Shown here piece after piece: positions 422 through 1,218 of a DNA stretch of 45,288 nucleotides. The first letter of the stretch is position 1. Each line of letters starts with the position of its first letter. The notes below the pieces were generated by a model. The model ran no database searches, was not told the origin of the DNA, and was given only the letters and a program-made list of their open reading frames with translations. The translations under genes were made by a program, and so were the position numbers. Source of the stretch: Thermoplasmatota archaeon (GTDB lineage Archaea > Thermoplasmatota > Thermoplasmata > Thermoplasmatales > Thermoplasmataceae); the NCBI GenBank assembly GCA_023487765.1, contig JAMDBW010000014.1, positions 1 through 45,288 on the forward strand, in the 5' to 3' direction.

Positions 422-1218
422 GTGCGCCGTCGAAGATGAACAACCATGAGAGAAAGTCTCAACACAGAAAGAACCGGAAACTATGAAGCGAGGGTCAAGG
501 CTGAACTGGCAACAGTTTCGGCTGAAGCAGACCGACAACGGGGTCAACGGAACCTCAGCAATGAGGCTCGGGTACCTCTACGCGAAGCCGCAGGCCTGAA
601 TGAAAATGAACCTATATGTAGCGTCGTGAGTATAGCCCGCAGTAATGCGGTGAAGGGGTATGTCGAGCCTGTCTATGTGTGGCGAAGACAGTATCATGCA
701 TCTCCAAATCCGGCAAGGATGCATGAATGCCCCGGCGTAGCAGGGCAGGCATGGGGTGAAGGTTGCTCGAGATAAGACGGGAGATCCCCCACTGTTCCGA
801 AAGGATAAGTGTGCCTATAAGCGGAAGTGAAGTGGCACTCAATGCAGTGCGGGAAGACAGAGGAGATCGTAGTACCTGTGAGAACGTCGTAATGACGGTG
901 GAGGAAAGGGTCTACACTTCACGGGAACCCAAAGGAGAACTGAGGCTGTCCTTACTGTCCGGGAGGACTATCATGGGACGGAATGGGTGCATAAAATGAA
1001 TAGAGCGCTCTAATGTGGGTCAGAGTAATGCATTCCATGAAAATGTCGACAGGTAATCCAGAGGGGATATCCTGCTGCCAAAGCCGCATGTGCAGACTGC
1101 ACATGATGCCATAACTGCAGCAGGTGAAACACCATCCCGTGTCGGTAAGCGTAGTGCGGGAAAACCGCAAGCACTGTTTGACGAGAGGCTTCTGGGTAAC
1201 GCCAGAAGTCTACTCTAC
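422..1218 (+). mobile_element. Group II intron, ORF-less or strongly ORF-deleted (possibly degenerate)
   Basis: Starts GTGCGCC; 'acgggagatccc...gaagacagaggagatcgtagtacctgtgagaacgtcgtaatgacggtggaggaaagg' resembles the DII/DIII region of bacterial-type group II introns; 'AAGCGTAGTGCGGGAAAACCGCAAGCACTGTTT' (about 1146-1179) is DV-like, followed by a DVI-like hairpin GAGAGGCTTCTGG-GTAACG-CCAGAAGTCT[A]CTCTAC with a bulged A at 1212 and a terminal YAC. No reverse transcriptase ORF inside. Confidence 0.72.

Follow-up and report, generated by a model that had tools for sequence, protein, structure and literature searches.

Group II introns are self-splicing, mobile RNAs. They are reported to be present in 15% of Thermoplasmatota genomes (PMC8919778), and archaeal introns without an ORF, as well as homing into the ORFs of introns, have already been described (PMC4424553, PMC2882425). 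ORF-less introns of Methanosarcina were reported by Dai and Zimmerly 2003, whose work we use here as cited in PMC4424553 and PMC2882425, and in Thermosynechococcus elongatus the ORF-less intron TeI3c lies within TeI4c, inserted after the first and before the second ATG of the host reverse transcriptase (RT) gene (PMC2882425). Here we describe an ORF-less group II intron inside the RT start of a related intron in a Thermoplasma-like archaeon, a new occurrence of an arrangement that is already known. The window, that is, the whole stretch of DNA analysed, is an entire 45,288-nt contig (C30) of a metagenome-assembled genome (1.33 Mb, 88 contigs, 69.8% complete). An initial annotation of the window had taken the host to be archaeal, and this is supported by its thermosome, for which the closest structure match is 1a6d, the thermosome beta subunit of Thermoplasma acidophilum.

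Results

The interval 422-1218 (+) is a genuine group II intron, ORF-less and 797 nt long, and the limits given in the initial annotation were borne out to the base by an Rfam match and by the ends of homologous copies. In a cmscan search, RF02005 (group-II-D1D4-6) matched 453-747 (+) with 56.6 bits, above the gathering threshold of 49, and, under permissive settings, RF00029 (Intron_gpII, DV-DVI) matched 1145-1218 (+) with a score below gathering (30.3 versus 40 bits) yet an E value of 0.0016, stopping exactly at 1218. Order-wide blastn (117 genomes of the same order as the window genome) yielded homologous matches in 17 genomes, the window's own and 16 others; many of these matches start at intron nucleotide 1 or end at nucleotide 796/797, with differing DNA beyond, and the boundaries at 422 and 1218 are therefore right. 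The intron runs from GTGCGCCGTC to CTACTCTAC, with a GUGCG 5' end and an AY 3' end that both fall at homolog-supported boundaries, and is present as one copy in its own assembly. An exact conserved intron motif gave 0 matches in viral contigs, and DNA matches in a plasmid collection were only DV-sized and lay in six bacterial plasmids, four of which were also among the best RT matches (plasmid RTs were at most 44% identical). The low RF00029 score might suggest that the region is merely structured noise or an unannotated gene; given the RF02005 score, the exact homolog ends and the EBS/IBS covariation (see below), we regard that reading as vanishingly improbable, the covariation ruling it out.

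The two flanks of the intron are of different nature, which the initial annotation overlooked. The 5' exon (343-421, +) is the remnant of a second family-A intron and begins just before its RT start: the start codon lies at 376-378, and 376-421 translates to MDRKVSELQGKLYDM, interrupted after 421. Up to 421, this exon shares 79% DNA identity with a family-A intron of another genome (G072) at its RT-start region, which puts the window intron inside a related intron's RT gene. Abutting the RT-start remnant is a truncated IS1634-like transposase fragment (3-342, -; NF033559, 24.1 bits, cut-off 100), called as an ORF at 3-263, with a frame that runs on to about 342. The 3' exon (1219-1338, +), by contrast, is the right end of an IS element, with a 31-bp inverted repeat at 1307-1337; from the intron 3' end onwards it is 92.5% identical over 120 nt to a full, intron-free IS copy in the same genome (G000:C46:30220-32003). 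An IS630-like transposase orfA (1325-1807, -; NF033545, 82 bits, cut-off 100) borders the IS end. That IS copy on C46 (locus L010, 4721-6504) measures 1784 bp, has 31-bp inverted repeats and encodes a 548-aa transposase that is weakly IS66/ISL3-like; the insertion points of this element are the A-rich ends of other transposase orfA genes, of which one lies on C46 and the other, IS630-like, in the window, and these points are possibly frameshift sites.

The two flanks cannot once have formed one exon. The RT gene is not resumed in the 3' exon, so splicing would restore no reading frame, and because the 3' exon does not match the 5' exon, the locus must be rearranged or misassembled. The simplest cause of the mismatched flanks is recombination between intron copies or misassembly through a repeat. 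A pure assembly artefact, in which two intron loci were joined in the metagenome through the repeated intron, would fit a genome in 88 contigs that is 69.8% complete, with the intron 421 bp from the contig start; the assembly holds a single copy of the window intron, however, and we consider this explanation plausible, though on balance doubtful.

Both EBS1 and EBS2 recognize the 5' exon. EBS2 (GTATAGC, 630-636, +) forms 7 of 7 pairs, one of them G-U, with IBS2 (GCTATAT, 408-414), which lies one base upstream of IBS1, and EBS1 (CTATGT, 673-678, +) forms 6 of 6 pairs, also with one G-U, with IBS1 (416-421). Among 123,300 positions scanned in the window's own genome, 6+7 pairs occurred at position 421 only, which supports both the boundary and the choice of target. 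In the window copy, G043 and G077, the three family introns whose 5' end, DI and 5' exon could all be read, EBS1 occupies one and the same loop position but differs in sequence (CTATGT, ATGTCC and CTTATT, respectively), and the last six exon bases (IBS1) are ACATGG, GGACAT and AATAAG; in all three, EBS1 pairs 6/6 with its own exon versus 3/6 or fewer with the other exons. EBS2 of G077 has another sequence at the same loop position (TCCGCA, with TGCGGA in the exon, read by eye, the fixed 7-nt register used in scoring being one base off for this intron), and that of G043, again in this loop position, is similar to EBS2 of the window copy and does not tell the window exon and the G043 exon apart. 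The use of EBS2 argues against type IIC, and we tentatively class the window intron as IIB-like, the assignment being tentative because EBS3, in the coordination loop, is left at three candidate positions and the 3' exon may be foreign. A delta-delta' interaction in the style of IIA introns was unsupported (T precedes EBS1 in all three introns, and the first 3' exon base, known for two of them, is A in one and T in the other). We likewise rejected the idea that both exons stem from retrohoming into the IS element, the intact IS sequence (GGGACATACC followed by ATGTAAATG) misfitting EBS1/EBS2 in register.

Domain I has a closing helix, and compensatory changes support domains II, III, V and VI. 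Domain I (427-780, +) is closed by CCGTC (427-431) with GACGG (776-780) and contains the Rfam D1D4-6 core (453-747). Domains II (781-858, +) and III (862-915, +) consist of helices that covary among eight introns, with compensatory changes in 27 of the 37 pairs of the 8-sequence alignment, and a DIII-like segment previously proposed near 865-915 is thereby borne out at 862-915. The domain IV region (916-1146, +; limits approximate) is without RT ORF or RT remnant. Domain V (1147-1179, +) retains the AGC triad and its overall fold, with two mismatches in the lower stem (AAGCGTAG/CACTGTTT) and an RF00029 score below gathering; domain VI (1183-1215, +) is a covariation-supported helix with one bulged A, at 1212, as noted in the initial annotation; such a base is expected 7-8 nt from the 3' end of a group II intron, and A1212 agrees with this. 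Across 14 copies, 91.1% of DV-DVI alignment cells were paired versus 79.5% after shuffling, covariation was 0.395 versus 0.18, slid versions dropped to about 40% pairing and 11 pairs had changed on both sides.

A caveat of the initial annotation, that the lower DV helix has two unpaired positions, proved correct. In the window copy, 2 of the 25 DV-DVI pairs fail, both in the lower DV stem (2 of its 8 pairs), whereas none fail in three other copies. These two mismatches make the activity of the window copy doubtful, and it is probably a poor splicer or inactive. The same mismatches bear on its origin, because recombination between intron copies would also explain why the DV strands resemble different relatives, a resemblance of few bases. 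More specifically, the copy could be a dead chimera of two family members that recombined, or between which the RT switched templates, the crossover lying near the DV loop; a 5' part with its RT-gene exon would have been joined to a 3' part formerly in an IS element, leaving DV unpaired and splicing abolished. In favour of this, the DV 5' strand AAGCGTAG recurs unchanged in the G035 intron, where it faces CTACGTTT, and in other copies the strands that match the 3' strand CACTGTTT face 5' strands of AGTG type; moreover, the EBSs fit the 5' exon, and the 3' exon is unrelated. The crossover evidence amounts to few bases, however, and in G093 a decayed copy likewise combines GT at these DV columns with CACT, so that plain mutation is possible; we put this chimeric origin slightly short of even odds.

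Neither the ORF list nor tblastn revealed an RT or RT remnant inside the intron, including DIV, in agreement with the ORF-less status proposed earlier. The nearest full-length relative, G043:C16, is 2027 nt long and carries in DIV an RT/maturase of 434 aa (TIGR04416, 399.7 bits; Pfam RVT_1 and GIIM), in which a Pfam scan found no DNA endonuclease domain. It is of the same archaeal family as the window intron, with the same 5' and 3' ends, the same EBS positions and 77% identity over intron nucleotides 1-363, and differs in its RT/maturase and in its target site. The expectation that an ORF-less copy would depend on an RT in trans was borne out only in part: the window's own genome has two group II RTs, on C46 and C26, but the C46 protein (319 aa) is C-terminally deleted and without the GIIM (maturase) domain, and the C26 protein, which shares 48% identity with the G043 RT, breaks off where its contig ends. 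With no full-length family-A RT or other intact helper found in this 69.8%-complete genome, the two proteins make a helper acting in trans possible, as candidates. The same genome also holds a degenerate group II intron remnant (G000:C34:3155-3420, L012; RF02005, 36.6 bits, below cut-off) and an 88-bp unit repeated in tandem about three times upstream of the group II intron on C26 (G000:C26; L011, 694-959).

Other genomes of the order contain further forms. One ORF-less relative (G088:C8; L117, 2722-3423), 702 nt long, has only the RT start (MKRLEDIQNALYQAAKTDRKR) left in DIV and interrupts an IS3-type transposase (HTH_21 + rve) within DNGPQY. Its exact removal yields a continuous 315-codon frame (...RVDNGPQYSSKLFRKAMKLLGI...), for a 5' end at 2722 (GCGCG, not GTGCG) that was picked by motif and near which other in-frame cuts also leave the frame open. 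This restoration is suggestive of splicing by ORF-less members, and some of these introns probably splice. In G072:C30 (L106, 1116-1750), a family-A intron has an internally deleted RT gene with its first and last codons fused (MDTRVSELYGKLYDLVKAKRHNTM, then a stop), possibly an intermediate to ORF-less forms. A second intron type, with the 3' end TTTTACCCTAC, ends inside the linker between DV and DVI of a family-A intron at two loci, G049:C89 (L054, 1316-1430) and G072:C8 (L055, 2635-2750); the former is apparently a twintron with an RT, its outer 5' part lying beyond the contig, and the latter shows DV followed by two different DVI domains. G082:C37 (L112) carries two RT-bearing group II intron copies in the same orientation, about 2 kb apart.

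Discussion

We favour, at a probability of roughly 0.9, a history in which an ORF-less, IIB-like intron retrohomed in trans into an RT gene and then underwent a 3' swap and DV decay. The intron is of a family resident in this Thermoplasmatales-like order, and an ancestral copy would have reverse-spliced, via EBS1 and EBS2, into a related group II intron, at the start of its RT gene, presumably with an RT from another copy acting in trans. Later, the 3' side would have been replaced by the end of an IS element, through recombination between intron copies or misassembly, and DV would have gained its two mismatches, probably leaving a copy that splices poorly or is inactive. Within this account, the identity of the intron, its exact ends, the fit of EBS1 and EBS2 to the 5' exon, the lack of an ORF and what the two exons are have been demonstrated, and splicing, mobilization in trans and the sequence of events are inferred. 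Against this history we counted the mismatched 2 of 8 lower-DV pairs, the sub-gathering RF00029 score, a 3' exon that is not RT gene, the lack of a good EBS1/EBS2 target at that site in the intact IS copy, and the failure to find a full-length family-A RT in the 69.8%-complete genome.

A broader proposal, that an ORF-less Thermoplasmatales family is spread in trans by RTs without a DNA endonuclease domain, prefers other mobile elements (intron RT genes and IS transposases) as homing sites and acquires new exon combinations by recombination between introns, seems to us unlikely. The window copy itself is one more example and introduces no new principle. One archaeal order, however, harbours introns with an RT, introns without an ORF, intron fragments and nested introns next to one another, with target-site pairing that can be read, and this makes trans mobilization in archaea testable.

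Compared with the Methanosarcina introns, as far as these are portrayed in the papers that cite them, the window intron is likewise archaeal, ORF-less and located in a related group II intron's ORF, with RT-bearing introns alongside; unlike their multi-layer nests, it belongs to another order, represents one nested insertion and has a non-matching 3' exon. The T. elongatus introns are bacterial, with ORF-end remnants in DIV and intact driver RTs (PMC2882425), whereas the window intron lacks any RT remnant in DIV, and its 69.8%-complete genome yielded no intact helper. Like TeI3c in TeI4c, however, the window intron is ORF-less, lies near the first codons of a related RT ORF and shows good EBS/IBS pairing with its target (PMC2882425).
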